This document shows, piece by piece, positions 1 through 64,000 of a stretch of 64,000 nt of DNA. Position numbers and translations under genes: made by a program. Position 1 is the first letter of the stretch, and each line of letters opens with the position of its first letter. The stretch lies in NCBI RefSeq assembly GCF_002934445.1, contig NZ_PTJE01000004.1, forward strand, positions 1 through 64,000, given 5' to 3'. The notes beneath the pieces are model-generated. The model made no database searches and had not been told where the DNA came from. It saw nothing but the letters and a program-made list of their open reading frames with translations. The DNA is from Nonlabens xylanidelens (lineage in GTDB: Bacteria; Bacteroidota; Bacteroidia; Flavobacteriales; Flavobacteriaceae).

Positions 1-3000
1 TCATAAGTCCAAGTTACTACTGTTGTAGTTCCTTCTCCTGTGATTGGGAATATCGCATCGTTAGTTACCGTTACTACAGCACTACAATCATCTGTCGCAG
101 TAGGTGCTACTAGAGTAGTCACTTCACATTCTGCAACAACATCTGCAAGAACAGTTGTGTCTGGTGTAGGCGCTACATTATCTTCGATGGTGAAACTTAC
201 CGTTGTTGATTGCGGGCAATCACCGTTAGTTGTATAAGTAACTATATAAGTACCTCTCATAGAAGTATCTAGATCTACACTTCCTGTTGCCGCATTAATA
301 ACTAACCCTGCTGTAGAAGTAAAAGTACCTCCAGCAAGTCCTGTTATAGTAGGCGTAGGATTTATAGCACTAGGACAATAAACCGTAGTGTTATAATTAA
401 ATGACGCATCATCTAACGGTAAGATAGTTACTGTAAAAGTCTCTTGATCTGTACAGTTTCCTGATACATCTTCTGCATAAACGAATAAAGTTTGCGTCGC
501 ATCGATCACCGTACCTGCATTTAACAAGCTACCGTTACCACCTGGGAAAGAATAATAAGAACCTACACTTAATACAGGTAATACATACTCATCACAAGCC
601 GTCACGTCCATTATCGTATTTATAACTGGTGTTTCTGTAATAGTCAACTGGAAACTAGTTTGTGCACCACAACCTGACATATCAGTATCATAAGCATATA
701 TAGTCACCGGATAACTTGCAAAATCAGAGAAGTTTATAGTATCCGCTTCCGCGAAAGCGATACCATTACCATCACTTTGCGTATAATATGATTGAGAACC
801 AGTTAAATAGTCACCAGTTATAGTGGCTAGGGTAAATGAATCACATACTGCAACGTTTGCAATAGCATCTATAGCTCTTTGCTCAATAATTACTAATTGG
901 TCTTGAGAGCTCACGTTACCGTTACCGTCATCAAACTGCCAAGAAACTACCGTAGTTGATGTAATCGGAAAAGTAGCTGTACCAGTTACCACTCCAACAC
1001 AATTATCTGTTGCTGTAGGTGCAGTTAAACTAGCTACCTCACAATTAAAAACTAAATCAGGTAGTGAAGCAGCGTCTGCCACAGGTAACGTTACATCATC
1101 TAAAATCACATTTTGTGTTTGTGTAGATGTATTTCCATTACCGTCATCATAGGTCCAAGTTACTACCGTTGTACCTTGAACTGTAATAGGCAAAGTCACG
1201 TTATTAGTTACTGTTACTATACCTGCACAGTTATCTGTTGCAGTAGGTGCAACTAGACTTGTTATTTCACATTGAGCAGTTACATCCATTAGAGCTGTTG
1301 CGTCTGCTACTGGAGCAGTCACGTCATCTATAGTTACATTTTGTGTTTGAGTAGATGTATTACCGTTACCGTCATCATAAGTCCAAGTCACTACAGTTGT
1401 AGTCCCTTCTCCGGAGATAGGTAATGTAGCGTCGTTAGTTACCGTTACTGTTGTAGCACAATTATCTGTTGCAGTTGGAGCAGTTAAACTAGTTACTTCA
1501 CATTCTGCAGTTATGTCCATTAGAGTTGTTGCGTCTGCTACTGGAGCAGTCACGTCATCTATAATTACATTTTGTGTTTGTGTAGATGTATTACCGTTTC
1601 CGTCATCATAAGTCCAAGTTACTACTGTTGTAGTTCCTTCTCCTGAGATAGGTAAAGTAGCATCATTAGTTACCGTTACTGTAGTTGCACAATCGTCAGT
1701 TGCTGTTGGTGCAATTAGACTTGTTACCTCACACTCTGCAGTTACATCGGTTAGCGTTGCAACATCTGCTACTGGAGCAGTAGTATCTGCTACTATTACC
1801 ACATCAAAACTACAAGAAGTAGTATTCCCTGAACGGTCTGTTATAGTAAATGAATTTGTAGTGGTCCCAACTGGAAACGTACTACCAGAAGCTAAACCTG
1901 CTGTCTGATTTATAGAGAATGACTCTACCTCTATCAGGTATCTAACAAGAGTTTGTGCTTGTATATCATTCCATCGTCCGCTGGTTGTAAAACCTGTATA
2001 ATCCTCTTCATTAGCATTATTAGGTTCAAATGTATTCCAATTTGTATACGTAGAAGTTGAACCGTCTTGCCAAACAAAAGTACCTTCTGAGTTTACATCA
2101 TTGAAACCAAATAATATCTCACCTCCTAAACTACTTACCTGGTTGTATAAAAAGTCATTTTCTTCAAGATTATTTATAGTAACCAAGTTATATCCATTTG
2201 TTGCAGCTGCTGCAAAAGCATCTACAGAAGAAACTGGAGTGTTTGAGATATAATATGCTTTACCATTTAGGTTACCAAGACTTGTAAAGTCTGCACCTAT
2301 TTCTCTCGCTTGTAAACTACAGTTATCTGTTACCGTAGGTAGTACATAGTTTACTACGGCGCTGTCTGAACATGTAATTAAAACATCACTAGGACAAGTA
2401 ACCACTGGAGCAGTAACGTCATCTATAATCACATTTTGGGTTTGCGTAGACGTATTTCCATTACCATCATCATAAGTCCAGGTCACTACTGTAGTTCCTT
2501 GAGTTGAGATAGGTAGTGTTGCGTCGTTAGTTACAGTGACTGTAGTTGCACAATTATCTGTCGCAGTAGGTGCTGTTAATGTAGTCACTTCACATTCTGC
2601 AGTTACATCCATTAGAGCTGTTGCGTCTGCCAGTGGAGCTTCACTATCTGTTACAATCACATCAAAGCTACAAGTAGAAGTATTACCACCAGCATCTGTA
2701 ACACTAAATGTATTAGTTGTAGTTCCTACAGGGAATGTACTTCCTGAAGCTAGACCTGCTGTTTGAGATACACTTATAGTATTACCTGAAGTGATCATAA
2801 AACTAACATCATCTATTGAAACATTCATAAAAAAGAGTTGAGTCTCTACCTGAATACTTAAATACACTGTAGTTCCTTCTAAAGTTTGTAATAATGATGT
2901 AACATCAAAATTTCTAGTATTTGGACCTAATTGCATATTAGCGTCACCTGCGTTAGTTGAATAAATTTCTTGAATAGGTGACATAGTAGCATCTAACAAT

Positions 3001-7678: not shown

Positions 7679-9463
7679 TTACATTTGTTCAGGAACTTCT
7701 ATTCCCATGAGGTGACAAGCGCTTTTCACAACCGCTGCTGTCTTATAACATAATAACAAACGGAATTGCTTCAAGTCTGCATTATTTTCTTCTACTATTT
7801 TAGGTACGTTTTGATAGAAAGAATTGAATTCTTTAACTAACTCGTATACATAGTTTGCTATTAATGCTGGACTGTATTTATCTGCCGCAGTTTGTATCAT
7901 GTTAGGATATTGCTGTAATGACATAATTACTGCGGTATCCTTATCTGTCAACTCTAAATTTGTGGCAGTCATTAATTTATTAGAATCAAATCCTGTTTTC
8001 TTTAATATCGACTGAATACGAGCATGTGTATATTGAATAAAAGGACCGGTATTCCCTTGAAAATCTACCGATTCTGCTGGATCAAACATCATGTTTTTCT
8101 TAGGATCTACTTTCAACATAAAGTATTTTAAAGCCCCTAAGCCTATCATATTATACAGACGTTCTTTCTCATCTTCAGAAAGACCTTCTAATTTCCCTTG
8201 TTCTTGTGCAATGGTTTTTGCAGTTGAGGTCATTTCTTCCATCAACTCGTCAGCATCTACCACAGTTCCTTCACGAGATTTCATTTTACCAGAAGGAAGC
8301 TCTACCATACCATAACTCAGGTGGTATAAATTCTCTGCCCAGTCAAAACCTAGTTTCTTAAGTATTAAGAAAAGTACTTTAAAGTGATAATCTTGTTCAT
8401 TACCTACGGTATAAACCATAGAATTAATGTTGTGATCTTTTACTCTCTGTATAGCTGTTCCTATATCTTGAGTCATGTAAACTGCAGTTCCATCACTACG
8501 TAAAACAATTTTTCTGTCTAACCCATCTTCTGTAAGATCTATCCATACAGAACCATCAGGATCTTTTTCAAAAACACCTTTATCAAGACCTTCTTGTACG
8601 ACATCCTTACCTAATAAATACGTATTACTTTCATAATACAAACTATCAAAGTTTACTCCTAGATTTCTATACGTAGTTTCAAAACCGTCATAAACCCAGC
8701 TGTTCATCTTTTCCCATAGTGCAACTACCTCAGCATCGCCTTGCTCCCATTTTTGAAGCATTTCTTGAGCTGCTAGAATAGATGGAGCTTCTTTCTTTGC
8801 TTCTTCTTCGGTTTTACCTTGAGCAATAAGAGTTGCTATTTCCTTTTTATATTCCTGATCAAATTTCACATAGTAGTTACCTACTAACTTATCTCCTTTT
8901 AAACCTGTAGATTCTGGAGTCTCGCCATCTCCATATTGCTCCCATGCTAGCATAGATTTACAAATATGAATACCGCGATCGTTTATTATTTGTGTCTTGT
9001 TTACTGTGCGTCCAGTCGCCTCAATAATATTTGCTACAGAAAAACCTAATAAGTTATTTCTAACATGTCCTAAGTGAAGCGGTTTATTTGTGTTAGGAGA
9101 ACTATATTCTACCATAACACCAGGTTGGGTAGTATCTTGATTTTTTACACCATAATTTGCATCACTAAGTATTCGGTTAAAGTCTTTTAAGAATGCGGTT
9201 GCAGCAACTGTTATGTTTAAAAAACCTTTAATGACTTCTATATCGGTAACTAAATCAGTATTCTCTTTTAGATACTCTCCTATTTGCTGACCTATCGCCG
9301 CAGGATTACCTTTAATATGACGTAACATAGGAAATACCATGATGGTAAAGTCTCCGTTTTGATCCTTTCGCGTAAGCGTAATTTCTACATTTTCTAATTC
9401 TATAGAAAAAATAGATTTCACAGCTTCTTTTGATGCGTTCTCCAATTGTTGAAAAAGTGTCAT
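7679..9463 (-). CDS. argS: Arginyl-tRNA synthetase
   Basis: A 594-residue class I aminoacyl-tRNA synthetase that charges tRNA-Arg in the cytoplasm. The N-terminal Add-1 domain spans about 1-105. The HIGH signature is HLGH at 130-133 within PNTNKPLHLGHVRNN, and the KMSKS equivalent is GKMKSREGTVV near residue 395. The DALR anticodon-binding domain closes the protein (about 470-594, ending MGIEVPEQM). Length is normal. It is a single gene with its own terminator at 7602-7647, and a -7 box TATCTTTG lies 18 bases upstream of the ATG. Codons near 9365-9379 contain a decayed copy of the dispersed palindrome, read as TLTRK. Confidence 0.98.
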   Translation of the reverse strand: MTLFQQLENASKEAVKSIFSIELENVEITLTRKDQNGDFTIMVFPMLRHIKGNPAAIGQQIGEYLKENTDLVTDIEVIKGFLNITVAATAFLKDFNRILSDANYGVKNQDTTQPGVMVEYSSPNTNKPLHLGHVRNNLLGFSVANIIEATGRTVNKTQIINDRGIHICKSMLAWEQYGDGETPESTGLKGDKLVGNYYVKFDQEYKKEIATLIAQGKTEEEAKKEAPSILAAQEMLQKWEQGDAEVVALWEKMNSWVYDGFETTYRNLGVNFDSLYYESNTYLLGKDVVQEGLDKGVFEKDPDGSVWIDLTEDGLDRKIVLRSDGTAVYMTQDIGTAIQRVKDHNINSMVYTVGNEQDYHFKVLFLILKKLGFDWAENLYHLSYGMVELPSGKMKSREGTVVDADELMEEMTSTAKTIAQEQGKLEGLSEDEKERLYNMIGLGALKYFMLKVDPKKNMMFDPAESVDFQGNTGPFIQYTHARIQSILKKTGFDSNKLMTATNLELTDKDTAVIMSLQQYPNMIQTAADKYSPALIANYVYELVKEFNSFYQNVPKIVEENNADLKQFRLLLCYKTAAVVKSACHLMGIEVPEQM

Positions 9464-10046: not shown

Positions 10047-10946
10047 ATGATTCTCAGTTTAAAGAATGTTTCTAAAACATATAGTAATGGTGTAAAAGCG
10101 CTAGATAATGTAACGATAGATATCAACGCTGGTATGTTCGGTTTACTAGGTCCTAATGGTGCTGGTAAATCTTCCTTAATGAGAACTATTGCTACTTTAC
10201 AATCTCCTGACTCTGGTAGTATACATCTAGACGGATTAGATATTTTAAATAACAAGATTGAATTTAGAAAAAACTTAGGTTATCTACCACAAGAATTTGG
10301 TGTGTATCCTAAAATGAGTGCACATGATTTATTACATTATTTTGCTAGTTTAAAAGGAATTACCAATAAATCTGAACGTAGAGCCATAGTAGAAAAAGCT
10401 CTTGAGGTGACTAATCTTACTGATGTCCAAGACAAACATGTAGCTGGTTATTCTGGTGGTATGAAACAGCGTTTTGGTATCGCTCAATTATTATTAAATA
10501 ACCCAAAACTTATTATAGTAGATGAACCTACTGCTGGGCTGGACCCTGCAGAGCGTCATCGTTTTTTAAATGTTCTTAGAGAAATAGGGACCAACCACAT
10601 TGTTATATTTTCTACGCACATTGTAGACGACGTAAAAGAATTATGTACCGACATGGCTATTCTTAACGGCGGTAAAATACTTGCACAAAGCACTCCTAAA
10701 CAAATGGTTGCAAGTCTACAGGACAAAGTGTGGACTACTACGGTAAATCGTGAGGCTATAGAAAAAATGCAAAAAGATTATAATGTTATTTCTTCTAGTT
10801 ATAATGAGGACAACATGCTTACTGTACGTGTTTATGGAGATGTTAGTCCTGGTGCCGCTTTCGCGAAAGCGAATCCGACACTAGAAGACGTTTACTTCAC
10901 CACACTAAGTAGTGATAAGTTTACTACCCAACCAGAAATAGTTTAA
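10047..10946 (+). CDS. ABC transporter ATP-binding protein
   Basis: A 299-residue ABC ATPase that would power the permease encoded two bases downstream. Walker A is GPNGAGKSS near residues 35-43. The signature motif is YSGGMKQR, read here in place of LSGGQ, near 140. Walker B is LIIVDEPTAGLDP near 160, and the switch His is in FSTHIVDD. The last 75 residues form a poorly conserved tail that includes GAAFAKAN, of which AFAKA is encoded by the dispersed palindrome (10856-10871). Such ATPases paired with an ABC-2 permease/M1 fusion are common in Bacteroidota; the substrate is unknown. Confidence 0.93.
   Translation: MILSLKNVSKTYSNGVKALDNVTIDINAGMFGLLGPNGAGKSSLMRTIATLQSPDSGSIHLDGLDILNNKIEFRKNLGYLPQEFGVYPKMSAHDLLHYFASLKGITNKSERRAIVEKALEVTNLTDVQDKHVAGYSGGMKQRFGIAQLLLNNPKLIIVDEPTAGLDPAERHRFLNVLREIGTNHIVIFSTHIVDDVKELCTDMAILNGGKILAQSTPKQMVASLQDKVWTTTVNREAIEKMQKDYNVISSSYNEDNMLTVRVYGDVSPGAAFAKANPTLEDVYFTTLSSDKFTTQPEIV
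10856..10871. repeat. Dispersed palindrome copy (in ABC ATPase)
   Basis: Exact CGCTTTCGCGAAAGCG, read as AFAKA in the poorly conserved C-terminal tail. Confidence 0.9.
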
Positions 10947-10948: not shown

Positions 10949-13900
10949 ATGTTCTCTACCATATTTATTCACGAGATAAAAACGTGGTTTAAGAAACCGC
11001 TTTTTTATGTATTTGCTGCAATCTTTTTAATTTTAGGTATGCTAGTGATGGCAATACCTGCAGGCTTTTTTGACGGTGATAATGCAACAACCACGAGCAA
11101 TTCATTTATAAACAGTCCATTTGAGATTTTAAAATCTATTTCTATAATTTCTATTTTCTGTTATTTGATGATTCCCACATTTGTAGGGAGCACCATTTAC
11201 AGAGATTTCAAGAATAACATGCACAACGTGCTTTATTCTTATCCCATAAAAAAATGGGAATACTTACTGGCTAAATATTGTGCTGGTATTTCTATCTACT
11301 TAATTCTTATTTTTCTAGTAGTCGTGGGGTTAATGATAGGTGGTTATCTACCTGGAACAAACCCAGAACTTCTCGGTCCTTTTAAACTATGGAATTATGT
11401 ACAACCATTTCTCATAGTTGTAGTTCCTAACGTGATTTTTTATAGTGCTATAGTATTTGCCATTATCGTTTTTACTCGCAATATGAATGTGGGTTTCATG
11501 TCTATTCTTACTCTGATTATTGTGCAATTAATAGTGACCTCTTATGTAGATCAGGTAGAAGATCCATTCTGGCTCGCTCTTGCAGACCCACTAGGAATTG
11601 TGGCTACTGGCCAGACTACAAAATACTGGACACCTATAGAACAGAGTTTCCGTATGTTACCATTTGAAGATATGATTCTATGGAATAGAGTCCTATGGGC
11701 TGGTATTTCTATACTTATTCTAGGTCTCGTTATTGCAAGATTTAATTTTGCTCAAAATGCAGCGACTTTATTCAAATCTAAAAAATCTAAAAAAGTAACT
11801 AAAGAAAACACAAGCGGGATAAGCAAAATAATCTTGCCTACTGTCTCTACAGATTTTTCTTTAAAAGGCCAACTTTCTACTTTATGGCTTCTTATTAAAA
11901 GCGATACTAAATACATCATTTATGGGTGGCCATTTATCATTATTGCTTTTCTTGCCATAGTATTAACTTTTGTAATGATGTTTAATAGTGGTCTTATTTT
12001 CAGCACGCCATTATTGCCTAAAACGTGGGTTATGCTAGGTATTCCATCTACGTATGTGCTGTTATTTTCCTTTTTATTGATCTTCTTGTATTCAGGATTT
12101 TTAATAGATCGTTCTAACTCTGCTCACATTAAACAAATAGTAGATGTGACACCTACTAAGAGCTGGTTATTTCTAGTTTCTAATATTGGTGCACTAGTCC
12201 TCATGCTAGCAGTTTTACAAGTTATTCTTATAATTTGTGGTGTAGCTACACAATCACTTTTATCCTTCCATGACTACCAGATAGACCTATATTTGTTTCA
12301 GGCATTTTTCCTTAATATCTGGAAATACATCCCATGGATTTTAATGTCTCTGTTAGTACATACACTAATCAAAAACAAATGGTTAGGACTCGCTGTATTA
12401 GTAATTCTAGGGGTGGCTATACCTACAGTAACCGGAGCCATAGGAATAGACCAAGCTATTTTTGACTTTAATTCTGTAGGAGAACCCAGCCCATCAGACT
12501 TTAACGGTTATGGAGATGCGCTCGCGCCATATTATACCTATCGAGTGTATTGGATTCTATTCGGCATCGTGTTACTTTGTATTGCTTTATTGTTCTACAG
12601 ACGTGGTATGAGCACAGATGTTGCTGGTCGTATCGCTTTCGCGAAAGCGAGATTATCAAAATCAATTATAACCATTGCATCCATTTCTTTATTAGGTTTT
12701 ATAGGTTTAGGTGGTTACATATGGAAAATAAACAACTATGACAATGAGCGTCTAACCGGTAAAGAACAAGAAGAACGTCGTGTGAATTATGAAAAAGATT
12801 TAGGACAATATTTAAACATTGCACAACCTAGACTGGTTGCTGTAAATACGTTTATGGACATCTTTCCTGAGACAAAGGATTTTAAAGCTGGTGCTACCTA
12901 TACATTGATTAATCAGACTATGGTTGCGATAGACACTCTTCATGTAAATGTAACAGATTACCCTGTAGAATTTACACTAGACAGAGCTACTGAAGTGGTC
13001 TATGATAACGAAGATTATCAATATAGAATGTATCAATTTAATGAAGCATTGCAACCTGGTGACACGCTTATCATGAAATTTACCATGCACAATGAGGAGA
13101 ATAGATTTATGGATAATAAATCTCCTATTGCTAGTAATGGTACTTTTTTAAATAACAGCATGTATCCATCTATAGGTTATAATGATGCATATGAATTGCG
13201 CAATGTAAAATTAAGAGAAAAGTATGACTTACCTCCTAAGGATAGGTTGCCTGCAGCTACTAGTCCTGGTGCAACCGATAATAATTATATAGGTGGTAAT
13301 AGTGACTGGATAGATTTTGAAGCTACAGTAAGCACCTCTCCAGATCAGATAGCCATCGCACCTGGGTATTTAATTAAAGAATGGGAAGAAAATGGACAGA
13401 AGTATTTCCATTATAAAATGGATTCTAAGATGCTTAATTTCTATTCGTTTTTGAGCGGTAGATATGAAGTGGTTAAAGAAGTTCACAATGGAGTGAATCT
13501 AGAAATATACCACCATCCAGATCACACCTATAACCTAGATCGCATGATGAAGGGTTTAAAAGAAGGACTGGATTATTACAATGAGAATTTTACGCCTTAT
13601 CAGCACAGACAGGCACGCATTATTGAATTCCCTAAGGGATATGGAAGTTTTGCACAGGCGTTTGCAAATACAATTCCTTTCAGTGAAGGTGTAGGTTTTA
13701 TAGCCGATGTTGATGATACCGATAAGGATGCTGTAGATTATCCGCTAGCAATTACAGCGCATGAACTGGCACACCAGTGGTGGGCACACCAGGTAATAGG
13801 CGCAAATGCAAAAGGTGCGACTCTACTTTCTGAAAGTATGTCTGAGTACAGTTGTCTTAAAGTATTAGAAAAGGTCTATGGTAAAAATCAAATGCGCAAA

Positions 13901-14629
13901 TTTCTTAAAGACGCACTAGATGGTTATCTATCCGGACGTACTGGAGAGTCTATTAAAGAAAATCCTTTAATGTATAATGAGAACCAACAGTATATACATT
14001 ATCAAAAAGGTTCTCTAGTATTATATGCTATGAGCGATTACATAGGAGAAAAGAAATTTAATGGAGTCATTAAAAGATTTGCCGAAAAGTATCAGTTTAA
14101 AAGCGCTCCTTACCCTACAGCTATAGAATTTGTAGAAGACATAAAATTAGTTACTCCAGATTCATTACAGTATGTAATAAAAGATATGTTTGAGACCATT
14201 ACTCTTTATGATAATGAAATAACAGATGCAACTTACACAAAGATCAATGAAGATGAATATTTGGTGAACATAAAGAGTCTGGTAAGCAAATATAGGTCTG
14301 ATAAAAGAGGTGAGAAATCTTATGCATCAGTTGCCGGAGACAGTCTTAACTTTACTCCAAAAGGTAAAAAGAAAGCCATTTCTTCACTACCGCTTGCCGA
14401 CTATATAGAAATAGGAATCTTTGGAGAAGAAAATGAAGAAACCGGTGAAGAAGAAGTGCTGTTCTTAAAGAAACTAAAATTTACTGATATTGAGAATAAT
14501 CAATCTATACTCGTTACTAAGAAACCTGTAGAAGTAGGTATCGACCCTTATAACAAACTAATAGATAGAGGTACTAATGATAACCGTAAAAAAGTAACCG
14601 AATCTGACAGCAAGAAAAAAGAAGAGTAA
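10949..14629 (+). CDS. ABC-2 permease fused to an M1-type metallopeptidase
   Basis: A 1226-residue fusion. Residues 1 to about 550 form an ABC-2-type membrane part with many hydrophobic helices in two sets (MFSTIFIHEIKTWFKKPLFY at the start, a second set from about 310). A further helix at about 570-590 leads to a soluble M1 (gluzincin) domain to the C-terminus. Zinc ligands are H938ELAH942 with a downstream Glu in LLSESMSEY, and HELAHQWW is the M1 hallmark. The usual GxMEN exopeptidase motif is not evident; the equivalent stretch reads GYGSFAQAFANTIPFSEG. The tail is charged (ESDSKKKEE). It pairs with the ATPase two bases upstream. An export pump with a periplasmic peptidase is inferred. AFAKA at residues 562-566 comes from the palindrome at 12634. 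Confidence 0.92.
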   Translation: MFSTIFIHEIKTWFKKPLFYVFAAIFLILGMLVMAIPAGFFDGDNATTTSNSFINSPFEILKSISIISIFCYLMIPTFVGSTIYRDFKNNMHNVLYSYPIKKWEYLLAKYCAGISIYLILIFLVVVGLMIGGYLPGTNPELLGPFKLWNYVQPFLIVVVPNVIFYSAIVFAIIVFTRNMNVGFMSILTLIIVQLIVTSYVDQVEDPFWLALADPLGIVATGQTTKYWTPIEQSFRMLPFEDMILWNRVLWAGISILILGLVIARFNFAQNAATLFKSKKSKKVTKENTSGISKIILPTVSTDFSLKGQLSTLWLLIKSDTKYIIYGWPFIIIAFLAIVLTFVMMFNSGLIFSTPLLPKTWVMLGIPSTYVLLFSFLLIFLYSGFLIDRSNSAHIKQIVDVTPTKSWLFLVSNIGALVLMLAVLQVILIICGVATQSLLSFHDYQIDLYLFQAFFLNIWKYIPWILMSLLVHTLIKNKWLGLAVLVILGVAIPTVTGAIGIDQAIFDFNSVGEPSPSDFNGYGDALAPYYTYRVYWILFGIVLLCIALLFYRRGMSTDVAGRIAFAKARLSKSIITIASISLLGFIGLGGYIWKINNYDNERLTGKEQEERRVNYEKDLGQYLNIAQPRLVAVNTFMDIFPETKDFKAGATYTLINQTMVAIDTLHVNVTDYPVEFTLDRATEVVYDNEDYQYRMYQFNEALQPGDTLIMKFTMHNEENRFMDNKSPIASNGTFLNNSMYPSIGYNDAYELRNVKLREKYDLPPKDRLPAATSPGATDNNYIGGNSDWIDFEATVSTSPDQIAIAPGYLIKEWEENGQKYFHYKMDSKMLNFYSFLSGRYEVVKEVHNGVNLEIYHHPDHTYNLDRMMKGLKEGLDYYNENFTPYQHRQARIIEFPKGYGSFAQAFANTIPFSEGVGFIADVDDTDKDAVDYPLAITAHELAHQWWAHQVIGANAKGATLLSESMSEYSCLKVLEKVYGKNQMRKFLKDALDGYLSGRTGESIKENPLMYNENQQYIHYQKGSLVLYAMSDYIGEKKFNGVIKRFAEKYQFKSAPYPTAIEFVEDIKLVTPDSLQYVIKDMFETITLYDNEITDATYTKINEDEYLVNIKSLVSKYRSDKRGEKSYASVAGDSLNFTPKGKKKAISSLPLADYIEIGIFGEENEETGEEEVLFLKKLKFTDIENNQSILVTKKPVEVGIDPYNKLIDRGTNDNRKKVTESDSKKKEE
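12634..12649. repeat. Dispersed palindrome copy (in permease-peptidase fusion)
   Basis: Exact CGCTTTCGCGAAAGCG, read as AFAKA in the linker between the permease part and the last transmembrane helix. Confidence 0.9.
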
Positions 14630-14731: not shown

Positions 14732-16159
14732 ATGAAAGTATTACTTACAGGTGCCAACGGTTATATAGGAGTCCGTTTATTATATGAACTTCTTAAAGCA
14801 GATCATAAGGTGGTTTGTGCAGTGCGCAATGCCGCAAGACTATCTGTGCCACAAGAAATACGCGATCAAATAGAGATTATAGAAGTAGATTTTCTAAAGG
14901 TAGAATTAAATCAAAAATTACCTCAAGATATAGATGCTGCCTATTATTTGATCCATTCCATGACATCGAGCACAGAAGATTTTGATCAACTAGAAGCGCA
15001 AAGTGCTCAACACTTTGTAAAATTAATTAGAGAAACAGACTGTAAACAAGTTATTTATCTCTCCGGAATAGTAAACGAGGATAAATTGAGTAAGCATTTG
15101 CTTTCGCGAAAGCGAGTGGAAGACATACTTTATACAGGAGATTATAACCTCACGGTATTAAGAGCTGGAATAATTGTGGGTAGTGGTAGTTCTTCTTTTG
15201 AAATAGTACGCGACCTATGTGAAAAGTTACCTGTAATGATCACTCCTAAATGGGTGAATACTAAAACGCATCCCATCGCTATACGCAATGTGATGAGTTT
15301 TTTAATAGGTGTTTTAGGTAGAGAAGATTGTTACCGTCAAAGTTTTGATATAGGTGGTAAAAGCATTTTAACTTACAAGGAAATGATGCAAGGCTATGCT
15401 AAAAATAGGAATTTAAAACTGGCTATAATTACGGTGCCTGTTATGACGCCTAAGTTGAGCAGTTACTGGTTGTATTTTGTGACCAGCACTAGTTATAAAC
15501 TTGCTCAAAATCTAGTGAACAGCATGGCGATAGAAGTGATCGCTTCTAAGAATGATCTTGCTCAAAGGTTAGGTATAGAATTATACGATTATCAAGAAGC
15601 GCTTACTATGGCTTTTGCAAAAATTGAGCAAAATCAGGTAGTAAGCAGCTGGAAAGATTCTATGGTGAGCGGTAGATTTAAATACAATCTCAATAAATAT
15701 AAACAGGTCCCAAGTTATGGATGTCTTAAGGATGCTCAAAAACTAGCAGCTAATGATCCTGACGCGGCGCTGGAAAGGATCTGGTCCATAGGCGGTAAAA
15801 ACGGTTATTATTACGCAACGTTTTTATGGAAAATAAGAGGTTATCTGGATAAGCTTTTGGGTGGTGTAGGCTTGCGACGCGGTCGTACAAATCCTACCAC
15901 TATCTATGCTGGAGATGCCTTAGATTTTTGGCGTGTTCTTGTTGCAGACCGTGAGGGAAAAAGGTTACTACTATTTGCCGAAATGCGTGTGCCTGGAGAA
16001 GCCTGGTTAGAATTTGAAATCGATGAGAACAATGTCGTACATCAAACAGCCACTTTTAGACCCAAAGGTATATGGGGTAGATTATACTGGTACTCTATGC
16101 TGCCGTTTCATTACTTTATTTTTGCTGGTATGATGAAACATATCGCAACTGGGAAGTAG
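14732..16159 (+). CDS. NAD(P)-binding SDR-type protein with DUF2867-like C-terminus
   Basis: A 475-residue cytoplasmic protein. An N-terminal Rossmann fold of the atypical SDR (NmrA/epimerase-like) type begins MKVLLTGANGYIGVRLLYEL, with the GxxGxxG dinucleotide motif at residues 7-13. YLIHSM follows near residue 75. The C-terminal half (about 330-475) resembles DUF2867, with KIRGYLDKLLGGVGLRRGR and DFWRVL. These two-domain proteins are widespread in Bacteroidota; the substrate is unknown. It stands alone after the ABC terminator and ends at the bidirectional terminator at 16171. LSRKR at residues 123-127 is encoded by a palindrome copy. Confidence 0.87.
   Translation: MKVLLTGANGYIGVRLLYELLKADHKVVCAVRNAARLSVPQEIRDQIEIIEVDFLKVELNQKLPQDIDAAYYLIHSMTSSTEDFDQLEAQSAQHFVKLIRETDCKQVIYLSGIVNEDKLSKHLLSRKRVEDILYTGDYNLTVLRAGIIVGSGSSSFEIVRDLCEKLPVMITPKWVNTKTHPIAIRNVMSFLIGVLGREDCYRQSFDIGGKSILTYKEMMQGYAKNRNLKLAIITVPVMTPKLSSYWLYFVTSTSYKLAQNLVNSMAIEVIASKNDLAQRLGIELYDYQEALTMAFAKIEQNQVVSSWKDSMVSGRFKYNLNKYKQVPSYGCLKDAQKLAANDPDAALERIWSIGGKNGYYYATFLWKIRGYLDKLLGGVGLRRGRTNPTTIYAGDALDFWRVLVADREGKRLLLFAEMRVPGEAWLEFEIDENNVVHQTATFRPKGIWGRLYWYSMLPFHYFIFAGMMKHIATGK
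15099..15114. repeat. Dispersed palindrome copy (in SDR gene)
   Basis: TGCTTTCGCGAAAGCG, with one outer base different; read as LSRKR, a different frame from the AFAKA copies. Confidence 0.88.
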
Positions 16160-20451: not shown

Positions 20452-20467
20452 CGCTTTCGCGAAAGCG
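20452..20467. repeat. Dispersed palindrome copy (intergenic)
   Basis: Exact CGCTTTCGCGAAAGCG, between gltA and the terminator of the protease gene. Confidence 0.9.
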
Positions 20468-25966: not shown

Positions 25967-25984
25967 CCGCTTTCGCGAAAGCGG
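25967..25984. repeat. Dispersed palindrome copy (intergenic, 18-bp form)
   Basis: CCGCTTTCGCGAAAGCGG, a perfect 18-bp palindrome, lies between the eno stop and the eno terminator, so it is transcribed in the 3' end of the message. Confidence 0.9.
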
Positions 25985-30635: not shown

Positions 30636-30689
30636 GAGTGATGTATCATGAATTCAGGTCTATATCCTTCAATGATCTAATAATCACTC
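30636..30689 (-). ncRNA. Candidate structured leader before rpsD (possible S4 autoregulatory RNA)
   Basis: Outer arms 30636-30642 and 30683-30689 are perfect seven-base complements. Inner arms 30645-30652 and 30668-30676 pair with one bulged base. The element ends 15 bases before the rpsD ATG. Structure is seen; S4 binding is inferred. Confidence 0.55.
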
Positions 30690-45544: not shown

Positions 45545-47203
45545 ATGAAAATCAGATCCTGCATAGTCCTTATTATATATATACTAACTACCCATTCTTT
45601 ATTATCACAGAATAAAGAAGTCTTACTGCAGTACAAAAGCAACACTGCAAAAAAAGCAGACTCTACAAGAATTATACAATTAAACCATTCAACCACTCCT
45701 CATAAAATAACCGACAGTTTAAAATCACAATTAAAAAATCAAGGATATTTAAATCTATTAATTTCTGAACCTAAAAGAATCACAAATAATATTACCAAGT
45801 TAACTATTAACTTAAACCGAAAATACACCCACATTAAATACTTTTTCAATATTAAAAATAAACAAGATAGTTTGATTATGCATTCGCTTTCGCGAAAGCA
45901 AGAAAACATAATAACAATTAAAGATCAAAAAAAAATCATTGATGATTACAATGAGCAATTAAAAGAAATGGGATACCCCTTTAACGAAATAAAATTATCC
46001 AATATAAAACTAAAAGATAGCGATACTATAACAGCAAATTTAAATTTCAAGATAATTGAAAAACGTTATATCGACAACATCATTTTGAAAGGCTACACTA
46101 ACTTTCCAAAAACAACTATATCTTCATTTAACAACAAAACAAGAAACTATAATGAAAAAACAATTAAAGAAATAGATGAAATTATAAAAAACATACCTTT
46201 TGCAAAACAAACTAAAAAAACCGAAGTCCTATTTAAAAAAGACTCCACTAATATTTATGTTTATTTAGAAAAAATCAACACCAATACTGCAGAAGGCTTA
46301 TTAGGCTTTAACAACACCACAGATGGAAAACTAGAACTGAATGGATATATAGATTTAAAATTACAGAATAATTTAAATAGAGCTGAAACTTTCATTTTAC
46401 AATATCGAAATGATAATGGAGATCAAACCAATTTACAAACTAGTATAAATCTACCGTATGTATGGAAGACTCCAATAGGCATAGGTACAGAATTAAATAT
46501 TCAGCGTAGAGACAGCACATACCAAAGCACATCATTCAGCACTGGGTTATTTTATAAACCAAATTGGAAAACTAGCTTAGGAATCAACTACAAATCAAAA
46601 ACATCCAATGCTACAGCAACCGATACAAATCTAGAAAACTACACCAAAAACGGAATTGAACTAACATCTAACTATCAAAAAAACACGACTGATCCTTTAA
46701 TGCCAGAAAACCTCTATTTAAAAGCGAATTTCGGATTAATAAAAAGGACTGGAATAGAAATAAATGAAAAACAATTAAGTTTTAACGCAACCTTTTTAAA
46801 GTTATGGCATCTATCTCATAGAAGTGTATTTTTAAGCAATATCACTAGCTATTATTTGAAATCGAAAAACATACAATTTAATGAGCTTTATCAGTTCGGA
46901 GGATTGGGAAGCATTAGAGGTTTTAACCAAAATAGCATTGACAGCTCTTTCTATACGACGCTCGCTACAGAGTATAGATACCGTTTAAACGATCAAATTT
47001 ACCTTCACACCATTCTAGATATAGGTGTATTTGAGAATTTTAACAGTAAAAACCTTGATAAGCTTTACGGTTTTGGAGGCGGAATTGCAATTTTAACACA
47101 AGCTGGAATATTAAATTTAAGTATCGCAAACGGCCGATTTGAAGATGCTAAAGTGGACTTATCCAGCACAATAGCTCATATAAGCTTAAAAATAAACTTC
47201 TGA
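45545..47203 (+). CDS. Omp85/TamA-like outer-membrane protein
   Basis: A 552-residue protein with a signal peptide (MKIRSCIVLIIYILTTHSLLS). Residues about 25-230 are periplasmic, probably POTRA-like (a repeated pattern ending YIDNIILKGYTNFPKTTISS). From about 235 a 16-stranded-type barrel follows, with the Omp85 signature GGLGSIRGFNQNSI and the C-terminal FGGGIAILTQAGILNLSIAN ending in INF. The family inserts or exports proteins at the outer membrane. It is divergent from rpsL and upstream of the SusCD operon, but has its own unit. SLSRKQ at 115-120 is encoded by a palindrome copy. TamA-like is more likely than BamA given the short POTRA region. Confidence 0.88.
   Translation: MKIRSCIVLIIYILTTHSLLSQNKEVLLQYKSNTAKKADSTRIIQLNHSTTPHKITDSLKSQLKNQGYLNLLISEPKRITNNITKLTINLNRKYTHIKYFFNIKNKQDSLIMHSLSRKQENIITIKDQKKIIDDYNEQLKEMGYPFNEIKLSNIKLKDSDTITANLNFKIIEKRYIDNIILKGYTNFPKTTISSFNNKTRNYNEKTIKEIDEIIKNIPFAKQTKKTEVLFKKDSTNIYVYLEKINTNTAEGLLGFNNTTDGKLELNGYIDLKLQNNLNRAETFILQYRNDNGDQTNLQTSINLPYVWKTPIGIGTELNIQRRDSTYQSTSFSTGLFYKPNWKTSLGINYKSKTSNATATDTNLENYTKNGIELTSNYQKNTTDPLMPENLYLKANFGLIKRTGIEINEKQLSFNATFLKLWHLSHRSVFLSNITSYYLKSKNIQFNELYQFGGLGSIRGFNQNSIDSSFYTTLATEYRYRLNDQIYLHTILDIGVFENFNSKNLDKLYGFGGGIAILTQAGILNLSIANGRFEDAKVDLSSTIAHISLKINF
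45885..45899. repeat. Dispersed palindrome copy (in Omp85-like gene)
   Basis: CGCTTTCGCGAAAGC, last base differs from the 16-bp form; read as SLSRKQ. Confidence 0.88.
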
Positions 47204-54296: not shown

Positions 54297-55589
54297 ATGC
54301 AAAACACTCCTCTAGCAGAACGTATAAGACCTATTAATCTTGATCAATACCTAAGTCAGCAACATCTAGTAGGTGACAAAGGAACGTTGAGACAACATAT
54401 ATTAAACGGTACTACTCCATCTTTGATTTTATGGGGACCACCAGGTACAGGTAAGACTACTCTTGCACAAATTATTGCTGCAGAAAGTAAACGACCTTTC
54501 TACATTTTGAGCGCCATAAATAGTGGTGTAAAAGATATAAGAGAAGTTATTGAAAAGGCTAAAAATTCAGGAGGACTATTTACTGCAAAGAACCCTATAC
54601 TTTTTATAGATGAAATTCATCGTTTTAGTAAATCCCAACAAGATTCTTTACTGGGTGCTGTAGAAAAAGGCTGGGTAACTCTTATTGGGGCAACTACAGA
54701 GAACCCAAGTTTTGAAGTCATTCCTGCACTTTTATCTCGCTGTCAGGTTTATGTTTTAGACGCTTTCGCGAAAGCGGACCTAGAAAATTTACTTAATAGA
54801 GCTATAGAAATAGATGAAATATTATCTAAGAAAGATATAGAAATTATTGAAACAGAAGCTCTAATAAGAATAAGTGGTGGTGATGCGAGAAAACTACTCA
54901 ACGTTTTTGAATTAGTGGTAAATGCACAAACTGAAGACAAAATTATAATCACTAATAAAATGGTGTTATCTCAAGTCCAAGCAAACCCAGCTAGGTATGA
55001 TAAAACTGGAGAACAACATTATGACATAATCAGTGCTTTTATAAAATCCATACGAGGTAGTGATCCTAATGGAGCGGTTTACTGGCTAGCCCGCATGATA
55101 GAAGGCGGTGAAGATTTAAAATTTATAGCTCGTAGAATGCTCATACTCTCGTCTGAAGATATAGGTAATGCAAATCCTACAGCATTAATCATGGCTAATA
55201 ATACGTTCCAAGCAGTGTCTACCATAGGTTATCCTGAATCGCGTATCATTTTAAGTCAGTGTGCTGTCTATCTCGCTACTTCTTTAAAGAGCAATTCTAG
55301 CTACATGGCTATAGGAAACGCTCAACGTGCTGTAAAAGAAACCGGAGACCTATCTGTGCCACTAGGTCTAAGAAACGCTCCTACAAAGCTCATGAAAGAG
55401 TTAGGTTATGGAGAGCAATACAAATATGCACATGACCACCCTGGTAATTTTGCTCATTATGACTTTTTACCTACAGAAATAAGTAAAACCAAGTTTTATG
55501 AACCTGGTAATAACCCTAGAGAGCAAGCACAAAGAGATTTTTTACAAAAACGCTGGAAAGATCATTATGATTATGATAATAAAGGATAA
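54297..55589 (+). CDS. rarA: Replication-associated recombination protein A (AAA+)
   Basis: A 430-residue AAA+ ATPase of the RarA/MgsA/WRNIP1 family that acts at stalled replication forks. Walker A is GPPGTGKTT near residue 48, Walker [11 protein letters not shown], sensor GATTENPSF, arginine finger region [13 protein letters not shown]. The C-terminal MgsA domain has [20 protein letters not shown] and [19 protein letters not shown]. The AFAKA stretch (residues 156-160) is encoded by a palindrome copy. Its last 19 bases overlap the end of the convergent HAD gene. Confidence 0.95.
54761..54776. repeat. Dispersed palindrome copy (in rarA)
   Basis: Exact CGCTTTCGCGAAAGCG, read as AFAKA between the AAA+ core and the lid. 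Confidence 0.9.
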
Positions 55590-59199: not shown

Positions 59200-59229
59200 A
59201 TTATCTCGCTTTCGCGAAAGCGAGATAAT
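59200..59229. repeat. Dispersed palindrome, extended perfect 30-bp form
   Basis: The 16-bp core CGCTTTCGCGAAAGCG (59207-59222) is extended by seven complementary bases on each side, so all 30 bases pair. It lies ten bases past the rluD stop, where it could also act as an RNA hairpin; no clear T-run follows. Confidence 0.9.
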
Positions 59230-60857: not shown

Positions 60858-60919
60858 AAGGATAAAATGATTTTATAGGCTCGAAAAGATGTATTTTTCT
60901 ATGACCGTTAATAAAAGAA

Positions 60920-60927: not shown

Positions 60928-60938
60928 AGGATAGAAAA

Positions 60939-60951
60939 CGTTCTTAGAACG
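60939..60951. promoter_or_regulatory. Symmetric operator candidate between divergent promoters
   Basis: CGTTCT-T-AGAACG, a perfect inverted repeat with one central base. It lies 11 bases from the minus-strand -7 box and 10 bases from the plus-strand -7 box, where both -33 regions would overlap. Confidence 0.5.
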
Positions 60952-60961
60952 ACATCTTTTT

Positions 60962-60969
60962 TAACTTTG
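60962..60969 (+). promoter_or_regulatory. Putative -7 box of the ddl-coaD operon
   Basis: TAACTTTG, 29 bases before the ddl ATG. Confidence 0.6.
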
Positions 60970-60998
60970 TTGTTTAAGCTTGTTTATAAATTAAATTA

Positions 60999-61979: not shown

Positions 61980-62431
61980 TGAAGAGAGCCGTTTTTCCAG
62001 GGAGTTTTGACCCTATAACATTAGGTCACTTTGATATTATAGAGAGAGGTTTAGGCCTTTTTGACGAGATTATTATCGCTATAGGCGTTAATGCCGATAA
62101 GAAATACATGTTCTCATTAGAAGAGCGCAAGCGTTTTATAGAAGAGTCTTTTAAACATGAATCAAAGATTAAGGTGATGACCTACTCAGGACTTACCATA
62201 GATTTTTGTAAAAAACAAGAAGCTGAATTTATATTAAGAGGCCTGCGTAATCCAGGTGATTTTGAATTTGAAAAAGCCATCGCACACACTAACAGAAAAC
62301 TATCTGAAATCGAAACTGTATTTTTACTTACTAGTTCTGGTAAAAGCTACATCTCTTCTTCTATAGTAAGAGATGTCATTAGAAATAATGGTGATTACAC
62401 CAGTTTAGTACCAGACACAGTAAGAATATAA
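61979..62431 (+). CDS. coaD: Phosphopantetheine adenylyltransferase
   Basis: A 150-residue enzyme that makes dephospho-CoA from 4'-phosphopantetheine and ATP, the penultimate step of CoA synthesis. The nucleotidyltransferase motif is GSFDPITLGHFDII near residues 8-21; ILRGLRNPGDFEFE and ISSSIVRDVI complete the family pattern. It is coupled to ddl by a one-base overlap and is followed two bases later by the M14 gene. Confidence 0.96.
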   Translation: MKRAVFPGSFDPITLGHFDIIERGLGLFDEIIIAIGVNADKKYMFSLEERKRFIEESFKHESKIKVMTYSGLTIDFCKKQEAEFILRGLRNPGDFEFEKAIAHTNRKLSEIETVFLLTSSGKSYISSSIVRDVIRNNGDYTSLVPDTVRI

Positions 62432-62433
62432 AT

Positions 62434-64000
62434 ATGAAAAAACTTATAGCACTTTTTACAGCAGCACTTCTTCTCCACTCTTGTAATAAAACTACTCAAA
62501 AAGAAGCCATACAAGAAGCCAAAGAATACCCAACTGCTTTTGAACTAGGTAACGGTAATCAAACCGCGACCTATAATGAAGTTATTAAATTTTACAAAGA
62601 ACTCTCTACCGACTTTTCTAACATCGAGCTAGAAGAAATAGGTCAGACCGACAGTGGGAAACCTTTGCACTTAATAAGCTTCTCTAAAAATACTATAGAC
62701 TGGAATAGTGCTAATGAAGATAAAATTAAAATATTAATAAATAATGGTATCCACCCAGGAGAAAGCGATGGTATAGATGCTACCATGATGCTCATGAGAG
62801 ATCTTGCTACAGGTGCTATAGACGCTCCAGAGAATTTAATCTTCAGCACCATTGCCGTTTATAATGTAGGTGGCTCTTTAAATCGCAATTCATCTACACG
62901 CACAAATCAAAATGGTCCAGAAGAATATGGTTTTAGAGGTAACGCACGCAATTATGATCTCAATAGGGATTTTATAAAGGCAGACTCGCGCAATGCACTA
63001 GCTTTTTATGAAGTCTACCATAAAATAAATCCAGATATTTTTATTGATAACCATGTAAGTAACGGTGCAGACTACCAGTACACATTAACCCATCTTTTTA
63101 CACAACACAATAAATTAGGCAGTACTACTGGTCATTATTTACATACACAATTACAGCCACAATTAGAAAAAAGACTGGCAGCACGAGAACTTCCTATCAC
63201 GCCTTATGTAAACGTGCACAACGCATCTCCAGTTAAGGGTTTCTCTCAATTCATGGATTACCCTAGATATTCTACTGGATATACCAGCCTGTGGAACACA
63301 CTAGGCATGATGGTAGAAACACACATGTTAAAACCCTACAAAGACAGAGTATTAGGTACAAAAGCTATCATGGAAGAGATGATCCATATAGGATCTGAAA
63401 ATGTAGATACCATAAAGAAAGCTCGCAAGAGTTCCTTTAATAACTTTGAAAACGCAACACATTACACACTCAATTATTCCTTAGATAAAACACAGGCAGA
63501 CACATTAGATTTTCTAGGTTATGAAGCAGTCATAGGAAAGAGTGACGTTACAGGAAATGATTTACTTACATATGATCGCAGTAAACCATTTAATAAAAAA
63601 ACAGTTTATCACAATTACTTTGTAGCAACCGACAGTATATCCATACCAGATTATTATGTAGTACCACAAAGTCAGTGGAAAGTAATTGAATTAATGCGTC
63701 GCAATAACATACAACTAGAGTTTTTAACTAAGGACACTACACTAACAGTAAGTAAATACCGCATAGCAAATTACAAAACAGCTACTAACGCATATGAAGG
63801 TCATTACCCACATAGCGGTATTGATGTAAAAGAAGATGTTGTAGAGTTACGCTTTCGCGAAAGCGATATAATCATCCCAACGCGTCAACCTGGTATTAGA
63901 TATATAATTGAAACTCTAGAACCTGCTGGACCAGATTCTTTCTTTAAATGGAATTACTTTGACACCATTTTACAACAAAAAGAAGGTTTTTCTAGCTATG
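62434..64000 (+). CDS. M14-family carboxypeptidase lipoprotein (3' end outside window)
   Basis: The frame is open from the ATG at 62434 to the right edge, at least 522 residues, so it is cut by the window. Lipobox LLLHSC at residues 12-17 makes it a lipoprotein. The M14 zinc site is seen as NNGIHPGESDGID (His and Glu) and FIDNHVSNG (His), with substrate-binding RNYDLNRDF between. The catalytic Glu is probably in the MMVETHML segment. It starts two bases after coaD, so it is likely part of the ddl-coaD operon, and may cleave peptidoglycan or protein C-termini; the substrate is inferred only. RFRES at residues 473-477 is encoded by a palindrome copy. Confidence 0.88.
   Translation, partial: MKKLIALFTAALLLHSCNKTTQKEAIQEAKEYPTAFELGNGNQTATYNEVIKFYKELSTDFSNIELEEIGQTDSGKPLHLISFSKNTIDWNSANEDKIKILINNGIHPGESDGIDATMMLMRDLATGAIDAPENLIFSTIAVYNVGGSLNRNSSTRTNQNGPEEYGFRGNARNYDLNRDFIKADSRNALAFYEVYHKINPDIFIDNHVSNGADYQYTLTHLFTQHNKLGSTTGHYLHTQLQPQLEKRLAARELPITPYVNVHNASPVKGFSQFMDYPRYSTGYTSLWNTLGMMVETHMLKPYKDRVLGTKAIMEEMIHIGSENVDTIKKARKSSFNNFENATHYTLNYSLDKTQADTLDFLGYEAVIGKSDVTGNDLLTYDRSKPFNKKTVYHNYFVATDSISIPDYYVVPQSQWKVIELMRRNNIQLEFLTKDTTLTVSKYRIANYKTATNAYEGHYPHSGIDVKEDVVELRFRESDIIIPTRQPGIRYIIETLEPAGPDSFFKWNYFDTILQQKEGFSSY
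63850..63865. repeat. Dispersed palindrome copy (in M14 gene)
   Basis: Exact CGCTTTCGCGAAAGCG, read as RFRES, the third possible reading frame. Confidence 0.9.

Follow-up and report, generated by a model that had tools for sequence, protein, structure and literature searches.

To our knowledge, only a few kinds of short signal recur in hundreds of copies on a bacterial chromosome, namely HIP1, uptake sequences and Chi, and we know of no accepted function for HIP1. Chi sites are short and non-palindromic. The parS, Noc, SlmA and matS sites each consist of a short dyad that a dimeric chromosome protein recognises, and those of matS, Noc and SlmA number fewer than 100 and are not uniform in placement. 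Rickettsia palindromic elements lie inside genes in more than one reading frame; they are longer, mobile insertions, whereas no insertion was seen for the palindrome described here. This palindrome, 16 bp long with the 12-bp core CTTTCGCGAAAG, combines features of several of the repeated signals.

Like HIP1 (GCGATCGC) and the alternate HIPs of cyanobacteria, it is a GC-rich palindrome that is present in very many copies, within genes and clade-wide; HIPs differ in being 8 bp rather than 16 bp long and in numbering 1000–2000 per Mb, against one copy per 4–5 kb here (available part of PMC4390886). It further differs from HIP1 in its regular spacing, its A-rich arms, its unenriched inner hexamer and the fact that neither methylase family tested is shared. 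The DNA-uptake sequences of Neisseriaceae (DUS) and Pasteurellaceae (USS) are likewise clade-specific and occur in hundreds of evenly spaced copies, with an intergenic excess, a core with A/T-rich flanks and an origin by point substitution (last four features as reported in the accessible portions of PMC1939737 and PMC7811141). By contrast, the present motif is palindromic and longer, and its half sites are unenriched. The 18-nt palindrome of Caldithrix abyssi is also dispersed, rather uniform along the genome and not surrounded by a larger repeat, but it has only 38 exact copies, prefers intergenic DNA and was related to REP by its authors, as far as the available text of PMC5317091 goes. A literature search without subscription papers and preprints found neither a description of the present motif nor its 16-mer or 12-mer string.

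Number, conservation and distribution of the sites

The window, a stretch of 64,000 nucleotides from a 3.28-Mb Nonlabens genome (G000), contains nine exact copies of the 12-mer and seven of the 16-mer (Table 1). Allowing up to three mismatches, the 16-mer occurs at 11 places (seven exact, three with one mismatch and one with three), compared with a mean of 0.05 in shuffles. Allowing up to two, the 12-mer occurs at 12 places (nine exact, two with one mismatch and one with two), compared with a mean of 1.38 in the shuffled window, and 12 places were reached in 0 of 100 shuffles. The predicted number of exact 12-mers in 64 kb is 0.0022, in agreement with the figure of about 0.002 in the preliminary description. 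All ten copies listed there were found, although two coordinates were off by 1 and 7 bases (correctly 25968 and 59207) and the degenerate copy at 9363 was absent from the list. Its division into seven coding and three intergenic copies held: judged from stop-to-stop frames, the coding copies are read as AFAxA, LSRK or RFRES, and the intergenic copies lie in no long open frame. Because all three codon phases are used, selection at the peptide level can be rejected, and selection (or drive) acts on the DNA, as had been proposed.

Table 1. Copies of the palindrome in the window
Copy	Position	Location	Read as	State in related genomes
One mismatch, CGCTTCCGCGAAAGCG	744..759	inside long minus-strand open frame	AFAEA	no alignment to G010 or G242
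Degenerate, 3/16 mismatches (1 in 12-mer core)	9363..9378	within ORF 7679..9463		same degenerate core in G010
Exact	10856..10871	within ORF 10047..10946 (ABC transporter ATPase)	AFAKA	exact in G010
Exact	12634..12649	within ORF 10949..14629	AFAKA	no alignment to relatives
One outer mismatch	15099..15114	within ORF 14732..16159	LSRK	exact 12-mer in G010
Exact	20452..20467	intergenic		exact in G010 despite differing flanks
Exact	25968..25983	intergenic; precedes 19.9-kb copy-free gap		exact in G010
One outer mismatch	45885..45900	within ORF 45545..47203 (Omp85 domain)	LSRK	full 16-mer in G010
Exact	54761..54776	within ORF 54297..55589 (MgsA/RarA-type AAA ATPase)	AFAKA	exact in G010 and G242
Exact	59207..59222	intergenic		exact in G010
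Exact	63850..63865	open frame leaving the window	RFRES	exact in G010 and G242

The genome-wide count suggested earlier as a check gave 685 exact 12-mers in G000, compared with 0.11 expected from base composition and none in the control. Together with the excess over shuffles in the window, this rules out chance. Like a highly iterated palindrome, the motif is far over-represented across the whole genome, genes included; ORFs hold 66 of the 117 copies sampled in G000. Neither of the outcomes that would have refuted the observation, a count at the level expected from composition or copies that are ordinary codons shared with distant relatives, was observed. In the RarA-type gene (copy at 54761), the aligned codons differ from the 12-mer at three positions in Dokdonia and at one in G190.

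Among the genomes searched, exact 14-mers number 288–905 per genome in 23 of 23 Nonlabens, 18 of 18 Dokdonia and one further genome, and 0–17 in 244 of 249 sampled genomes of the family. Copy number showed little correlation with genome size in Nonlabens (Spearman 0.19, P = 0.43, n = 20) or Dokdonia (0.40, P = 0.18, n = 13). In the sampled stretches of G190, 55 copies are exact and 36 have one mismatch, so that variants are many, and the flanks are weak. No comparable dispersed motif was found in 20-kb samples of 20 other genera, a length that could miss a sparse motif; the same sampling found the motif in all seven control stretches from carriers. Some relatives appear to have lost the motif system, which argues that it is not essential. 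Near-matches occur in five genomes (G144, G042, G053, G051 and G076) and may be remnants of former sites, among other possibilities. Two Nonlabens phages (71 kb) contain no motif within two mismatches, although they are 97.9% identical over 32 kb and thus amount to nearly a single test.

Anatomy and spacing of the sites

The conserved unit is the 16-bp dyad. Across 15 sites, identity to G242 is 0.972 at 1–6 bases and 0.933 at 7–8 bases from the centre, and falls to 0.67–0.76 outside the dyad. The arms are symmetric and A-rich to about ±25 bp, with A peaks at +11, +17 and +20, and G makes up 0–14% across +11 to +25, whether a copy is intergenic or coding. Complementarity between the two arms of a copy did not exceed that of shuffled arms in G000 (z −1.7 to 1.2, eight tests), which argues for independent half sites rather than a hairpin. 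In 524 kb of G000 (both strands), all 223 occurrences of the half site CGAAAGCG have no more than two mismatches in the other half; as it is never found alone in this genome, the dyad is the unit. Halves with a poor partner make up 24 of 209 in Dokdonia and 20 of 87 in G190, and in both, single halves outside palindromes occur at the expected frequency. Outside the palindrome, neither half sites nor sub-words are over-represented.

In Nonlabens, the words CGAA and GCGAA are strongly avoided outside palindromes even when protein and codon usage are held fixed; the coding ratios are 0.34 and 0.16 in G000, 0.69 and 0.45 in Dokdonia, 0.80 and 0.86 in G190, and 0.92 and 0.95 in other genera pooled. 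TCGAA, which lies outside the palindrome sequence, is avoided equally (0.18), as are the unrelated words ACCCG, CCAA and CGGA, so this avoidance is not taken as evidence for a reader protein.

The sites are regularly spaced. In a 400-kb sample of G000, 92 sites lie at a mean interval of 4.3 kb (minimum 1268, maximum 10417), with a coefficient of variation (CV) of 0.48 compared with 0.98 in simulations, none of 5000 of which was equally regular. The CV was 0.73 (P = 0.012) and 0.55 (0 of 5000 simulations) for two Dokdonia contigs and 0.57 (P = 0.001) for G242. Regularity is weaker in some respects: the largest gap of Dokdonia contig C1 and the minimum interval of G242 were both as simulated. 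Long gaps are tolerated, namely about 30 kb in G249 and the 19.9 kb in the window, a Pfam-verified region that contains rpoA, secY, ribosomal protein and EF-G genes. In G190, assembled as a single contig, each of 20 stretches across 3.16 Mb held one to five copies, without concentration in one region; the density gradient from origin to terminus that had been suggested for examination was not seen at this coarse resolution.

Intergenic DNA, 10.8% of the sequence in G000 and 10.6% in Dokdonia, holds 51 of 117 and 51 of 103 copies, respectively; G190 showed no such excess (7 of 55 copies in 13.1% of the DNA). By gene orientation, the intergenic copies of G000 split 29/14/8, close to the 27.6/14.0/9.4 predicted from spacer length. 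Copies are thus placed regardless of transcriptional context.

Candidate readers and functions of the palindrome

Of the roles named in the preliminary description, a protein-binding site at the level of the chromosome fits these data best, and we tentatively read the palindrome as the genome-wide site of a putative dimeric chromosome-level protein, an assignment that falls a little short of probable. Each copy would form a symmetric double-stranded site of about 50 bp, consisting of the 16-bp inverted repeat of CGCTTTCG and CGAAAGCG and two arms of about 17 bp each, A-rich and depleted of G. A putative homodimeric, sequence-specific protein of Nonlabens, Dokdonia and G190 would bind the dyad; we infer that a single such protein acts inside the cell and serves a chromosome process, for which compaction, segregation and repair anchoring are candidates. 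Several hundred sites every few kilobases, blind to promoters and terminators, would suit marking or organising the whole chromosome rather than regulating genes.

Compared with the known parS, Noc, SlmA and matS sites, the 685 copies are widely placed and do not number in the tens, and their sequence is unlike the parS consensus; no parS-like site within two mismatches of two consensus strings was found in 544 kb (4.7 kb masked). Each of five carriers has one ParB (PF02195) and no second ParB-family gene, which rejects a Noc-like ParB paralogue as the reader. Several points count against a chromosome-level protein site: known architectural sites are fewer than 100 and non-uniform, gaps of 19.9 kb and about 30 kb are tolerated, and copy number barely tracks genome size, with which an architectural need should scale. 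The same holds for the weaker regularity in Dokdonia contig C1 and G242, for the weak flanks, many variants and missing intergenic excess of G190, for the single ParB-family gene of the carriers and for the apparent loss in relatives. A more specific proposal, which we hold with somewhat less confidence, is a dedicated chromosome-wide marking by a putative dimeric protein on several hundred 50-bp dyads, one per 4–5 kb, in Nonlabens, Dokdonia and one or more additional flavobacterial genera. It would be independent of ParB, the tested methylases and type IV pili, and would represent an undescribed class of chromosome organisation that was formerly more widespread in the family and disappeared on several occasions. 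If the motif does organise the chromosome, it would add a kind of system, and the long exact dyad makes a reader protein easy to fish from cultivable marine strains. The motif can also serve as a watermark that reveals islands derived from Nonlabens or Dokdonia.

The main rival, rather unlikely in our estimate, is a palindromic DNA-uptake or self signal whose copies are spread by biased uptake and recombination (molecular drive), as for DUS and USS. The traits shared with those sequences, from copy number and even spacing to the flanked core and point-mutation origin, are consistent with it, as are the copy number that does not scale with genome size, the absence from phages and the loss in relatives. 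A flavobacterium, Riemerella columbina, is described in the accessible part of PMC7965970 as favouring its own DNA. Drive also predicts full-length forms with one or two mismatches, and of 766 14-mers with up to two mismatches in G000, 664 are exact, leaving 102 mismatched forms compared with 11 in the control; decay would do likewise. However, DUS and USS are non-palindromic (available portion of PMC1939737), whereas the motif is a perfect 16-bp dyad, and the lack of enriched half sites or sub-words outside it also speaks against an uptake signal. A shared type IV pilus can be rejected: the PilB/GspE ATPase (PF00437 over cut-off) was found in only one of five carriers, and 3 of the 20 non-carriers examined also had it, so the pilus of both known systems is not shared. 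Should the motif prove to serve uptake, it would be, within our literature search, the first such signal in Bacteroidota, and a palindromic one.

We consider it improbable that DNA methylation and methyl-directed repair keep the palindrome, as proposed for HIP1 of cyanobacteria. In favour of this reading, the motif is a GC-rich palindrome that occurs hundreds of times, lies in genes in all frames and holds a potential methylation core (CGCG or TCGCGA), and in Dokdonia 28 of 45 one-mismatch forms deviate from the 12-mer at its outermost base, as reported for HIP1. However, this holds for just 1 of 13 such forms in G000 and 12 of 36 in G190. Outside the motif, TCGCGA is found 43 times in G000 compared with 42 expected (observed/expected 1.02 in Dokdonia), which rejects it as the selected unit, and CGCG 354 times compared with 447. 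In a search limited to two methylase families, PF00145 was absent from G000 and G190 and PF01555 from G000, G242 and G206, so neither is a shared methylase. The earlier suggestion of a HIP1-like methylation target thus found no backing in these data.

Slightly less probable again is a Chi-like recombination signal, read on a single strand by a nuclease of the RecBCD/AddAB type, for which a palindrome would serve both directions. One copy per 4–5 kb resembles the density of E. coli Chi sites, of which there are 1008 in about 4.64 Mb (accessible part of PMC1939737); the motif is absent from the two near-identical phages, and 5′ of each half the strand is rich in T and poor in C. Yet the half site is never solitary in G000 and not enriched alone in Dokdonia and G190, so selection does not act on one strand-specific octamer, and a half site acting alone is rejected.

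Very improbable, in our view, is an RNA element, such as a terminator or REP-like hairpin, or a small mobile palindrome. In its favour, the motif is palindromic and repeated; five window copies folded as RNA gave z-scores of −6.2, −2.1 and −0.9 for intergenic copies and of −3.0 and −2.0 for coding ones, as any such palindrome would; and of the copies between tandem genes, 20 of 29 in G000 and 22 of 38 in Dokdonia lie closer to the upstream stop. However, most G000 copies are in ORFs, convergent genes show no excess (8 compared with 9.4 in G000, 3 compared with 8.6 in Dokdonia), and arms no more complementary than shuffled ones, together with the orientation split, rule out a hairpin, terminator or promoter element. 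The tiny mobile palindrome proposed earlier can also be set aside, as aligned orthologues showed no clean insertion of 16 to 50 bp, the only gaps being a few bases long and confined to stretches that aligned poorly; RarA genes without the copy have codons of equal length.

Under the chromosome-level reading, sites seem to arise by point substitution, preferably at low-cost places between genes, and then to be long kept. On contig C4, at about 105–107.6 kb in G000 numbering, an intact site lies at 107572 in G000, 105685 in G010 and 105003 in G242; the site at 107572 is broken in G010 and G242, and that at 105685 is broken in G000. This one instance suggests that a site may be dropped once a neighbour serves the same interval.

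Abundance of the palindrome and its carriers

The 16-bp palindrome CGCTTTCGCGAAAGCG occurs 11 times in the window, against a mean of 0.05 in shuffled sequence: seven copies are exact, three carry a single mismatch and one carries three. Its 12-mer form CTTTCGCGAAAG has nine exact copies in the window and 685 in the whole genome (G000; 3,276,842 bases in 21 contigs), whereas base composition predicts 0.11 and a reversed control gave none. The dispersed palindrome of the preliminary description is thus borne out, and we also confirmed that seven of its ten copies are coding, each within a long open frame and between them using three codon phases, and that three are intergenic. Samples of 400 kb contained 92 exact, 10 one-mismatch and 9 two-mismatch 12-mers in G000, 103 exact and 45 one-mismatch copies in Dokdonia, and 55 exact and 36 one-mismatch copies in G190, a carrier of a further genus (45% G+C, single contig); all genome samples used in the analysis together amount to about 17% of G000, with one genome per species and naive gene calls.

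We counted the exact 14-mer GCTTTCGCGAAAGC in 249 genomes drawn evenly from the single family to which all genomes compared here belong. At least one copy occurred in 53 of them, and more than 17 in only five. Exact counts were 664 in G000, 609 and 578 in the Nonlabens genomes G242 and G010, 857 in G206, probably Dokdonia sinensis, and 408 in G190. All 23 Nonlabens genomes carried the 14-mer (288–857 copies, the lowest count coming from a genome 78% complete), as did all 18 Dokdonia genomes (369–905 copies), and the one genome of the G190 genus carried the motif. Contigs of named genomes yielded at least 109 stretches with the motif; among the matches listed, 94 came from Dokdonia or Nonlabens, with which we counted strain BBFL7, and 15 were from various other bacteria. 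When these 109 were compared with G000, 15 matched it, over 464 kb; in the longest matches identity was 71–78% for Nonlabens stretches, with one shorter match at 94%, and mostly 66–72% for Dokdonia.

The 16-mer was also present in 41 IMG/VR viral-contig stretches (L140–L180), which are possibly prophages or misassigned host DNA; some had a host-like density (seven 12-mers in 27.9 kb). By contrast, two Nonlabens phages, 71 kb together, held no copy within two mismatches, and given their mutual identity of 97.9% across 32 kb this absence is nearly one observation.

Anatomy and history of the sites

The symmetrised G000 profile carried strong information across 16 bp and a weaker flank out to about +25, in which G fell to 2–14%, C was on average undiminished and A peaked at +11, +17 and +20; this flank was similar in coding and intergenic copies. 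Dokdonia had a variant flank (T at +9, A at +10), and the flanks of G190 were weak. Identity between G000 and G242 at 15 sites was 0.97 at 1–6 bases and 0.93 at 7–8 bases off centre and 0.67–0.76 beyond; between G000 and G010, at 19 sites, it was 0.99 in both parts of the dyad versus 0.86–0.91 beyond. As identity is high in the 16-bp dyad and drops outside it, the letters conserved are those of the dyad, and the arms keep only their composition.

A selected hairpin or cruciform should make the arms match better within a copy than between different copies. We found no such within-copy match in G000 (z −1.7 to 1.2 in 8 tests on 66 coding and 51 intergenic copies), Dokdonia (−1.7 to 1.6), G242 (−0.6 to 1.5) or G190 (−1.3 to 1.9), and we rejected that structure on these grounds. 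Each half keeps to its consensus independently, as expected for a protein dimer. The half CGAAAGCG occurred 223 times in 524 kb of G000 (both strands); its partner half was exact in 192 cases, had one mismatch in 27 and two in 4, and never more. Halves were paired in 185 of 209 cases in Dokdonia and in 67 of 87 in G190, the remainder being at about chance level. The anatomy of the site argues for a dimeric protein that would bind double-stranded DNA.

We compared 25 exact G000 sites in 124 kb with G010 (about 89% identity) and G242 (about 75%). Nineteen aligned in G010, 18 of them exact, and six had no alignment; in G242, 15 aligned (11 exact, four with one or two mismatches) and ten did not. 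Aligned DNA also held exact sites missing from G000, one in G010 and three in G242. Among named stretches, preselected in that each holds the motif somewhere, aligned sites were exact in six of eight comparisons with Nonlabens and two of eight with Dokdonia; in G190, one of three was exact. At the RarA site, the Dokdonia form is three bases off the 12-mer and the G190 form (CTTTCGGGAAAG) one base off, which fits a site that would have arisen in place through substitution. Decay or growth of a site may also account for the G190 form. The suggestion of a tiny mobile palindrome found no backing in the aligned orthologues, which contained no clean insertion and only few-base gaps where alignment was poor.

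Features with coordinates in the window, its contig and other Nonlabens genomes
Feature	Location	Strand	Observation
Long open frame	window 1-6700	minus	open for at least 2294 codons, off the window edge, many similar internal segments, suggesting a large repetitive protein
S4-Flavobacteria ribosomal protein leader (RF03141)	window 30643-30677	minus	slightly over gathering score; upstream of S4 gene
RarA site	window 54761		LDAFAKADL in Nonlabens; equal-length codons for LNPFGK in Dokdonia and G190
Displaced site	contig 105-107.6 kb		intact site at three different positions in three Nonlabens species
Pair 223 bp apart	stretch L289, 9092/9315; genome G249, contig C4, 285704/285927		two Nonlabens genomes

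Spacing, placement and possible readers

Intervals between copies in the 400-kb G000 sample averaged 4305 bp (minimum 1268, maximum 10417, CV 0.48), a regularity that 0 of 5000 simulations reached. One Dokdonia contig had a CV of 0.73 (P 0.012), with a largest gap of 17.7 kb that was no smaller than simulated, and another had a CV of 0.55, again matched in none of 5000 simulations. G242 gave 0.57 (P 0.001), with one pair 223 bp apart; in its close pair, one copy lies inside a DUF7192 gene and the second in the next small ORF. The single instance of a displaced site (see table) suggests that one site per interval is what is kept. A copy-free gap of 19.9 kb in the window spans the rpoA, secY, ribosomal protein and EF-G genes, which allow little room for substitutions.

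Counting as intergenic what lies outside ORFs of at least 80 aa (naive gene calls), we found 51 of 117 copies between genes in G000 (10.8% of the DNA), 51 of 103 in Dokdonia (10.6%), 11 of 48 in G242 (7.3%) and only 7 of 55 in G190 (13.1%). Tandem, divergent and convergent spacers of G000 held 29, 14 and 8 copies versus 27.6, 14.0 and 9.4 expected from spacer length, and Dokdonia had fewer copies between convergent genes (3 versus 8.6 expected). Between tandem genes, the upstream stop was the nearer gene boundary for 20 of 29 copies in G000 and 22 of 38 in Dokdonia. Given this spread over gene orientations, we took there to be no promoter or terminator role.

Copy number, regularity and indifference to transcription argue for a chromosome-level role. 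Our tentative preference is that a protein marking or organising the chromosome inside the cell reads the palindrome. The other reading left standing, in which drive maintains the motif as a signal for uptake or self-recognition, seems rather unlikely. Uptake sequences, too, are evenly spaced, in excess between genes and flanked by A/T tracts, according to passages of PMC1939737 and PMC7811141, and full-length forms with one or two mismatches exceed the control in G000 (102 versus 11), but the motif is palindromic, its halves and sub-words are not enriched, and a PilB/GspE ATPase scored over the cut-off in only one of five carriers (three of 20 non-carriers). Part of PMC7965970 records a preference for its own DNA in the flavobacterium Riemerella columbina, and a comparison with HIP1 draws on part of PMC4390886.

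None of the five carriers has a second ParB-family gene (one per genome), and no parS-like site within two mismatches occurs in 544 kb including the parB neighbourhood (4.7 kb masked). PF00145 methylases were absent from G000 and G190, and PF01555 methylases from G000, G242 and G206.

Several short words are scarce. Outside the palindromes, ACCCG stood at 1% of dinucleotide expectation in G000 (218 expected in a 524-kb sample) and CCCCG at 0.00 in G000 and G242, versus 1.00 and 0.67 in pooled other genera, perhaps reflecting restriction-site avoidance. With the palindromes again excluded, CGAA/TTCG, above all GCGAA and TCGAA, was strongly avoided in Nonlabens and less so in Dokdonia, and such avoidance persisted with protein sequence and codon usage fixed (samples of G000, G010, G242 and G206). 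CATG was at 10% of dinucleotide expectation in D. sinensis, 1.03 in G000 and 0.69 in pooled other genera.

Traces of the palindrome outside the carriers

In a midpoint-rooted tree of 23 genomes, built from 20 ribosomal-region proteins only (3722 columns), Nonlabens adjoins G218 (zero copies), Dokdonia and G190 adjoin G144 (nine copies), and non-carriers fall between the two carrier groups (the two larger groups each have support 1.0, Dokdonia plus G190 has 0.68). Near-matches, 14-mers with up to two mismatches, exceeded the control in G144 (86 versus 20; 9 exact), G042 (69 versus 8; 6 exact), G076 (41 versus 5; 16 exact), G051 (39 versus 7; 17 exact) and G053 (38 versus 7; zero exact), and somewhat so in G073 (31 versus 12), G215 (29 versus 18) and G101 (27 versus 17). 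No excess was found in G218 (10 versus 8) or in the majority of the 20 further non-carriers counted. From these counts and the tree, we infer that the palindrome was formerly wider in the family and was then lost repeatedly.

Non-carrier copies are often clustered, and the two clusters with genes examined (L313 and L314) are a copper/heavy-metal resistance island encoding an RND pump, an outer membrane efflux protein, a multicopper oxidase, a metal P-type ATPase and CusB-like proteins. Further genera have related DNA, as does G242 (contig C13), where identity reaches 93% over long blocks. Two of the four L313 sites recur at the same places in 78%-identical islands and two do not; decay has affected some copies. 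The palindrome thus seems to be a watermark of carrier-derived DNA. A Nonlabens shares the island, at about 70–97% identity, with several motif-poor flavobacterial genera.
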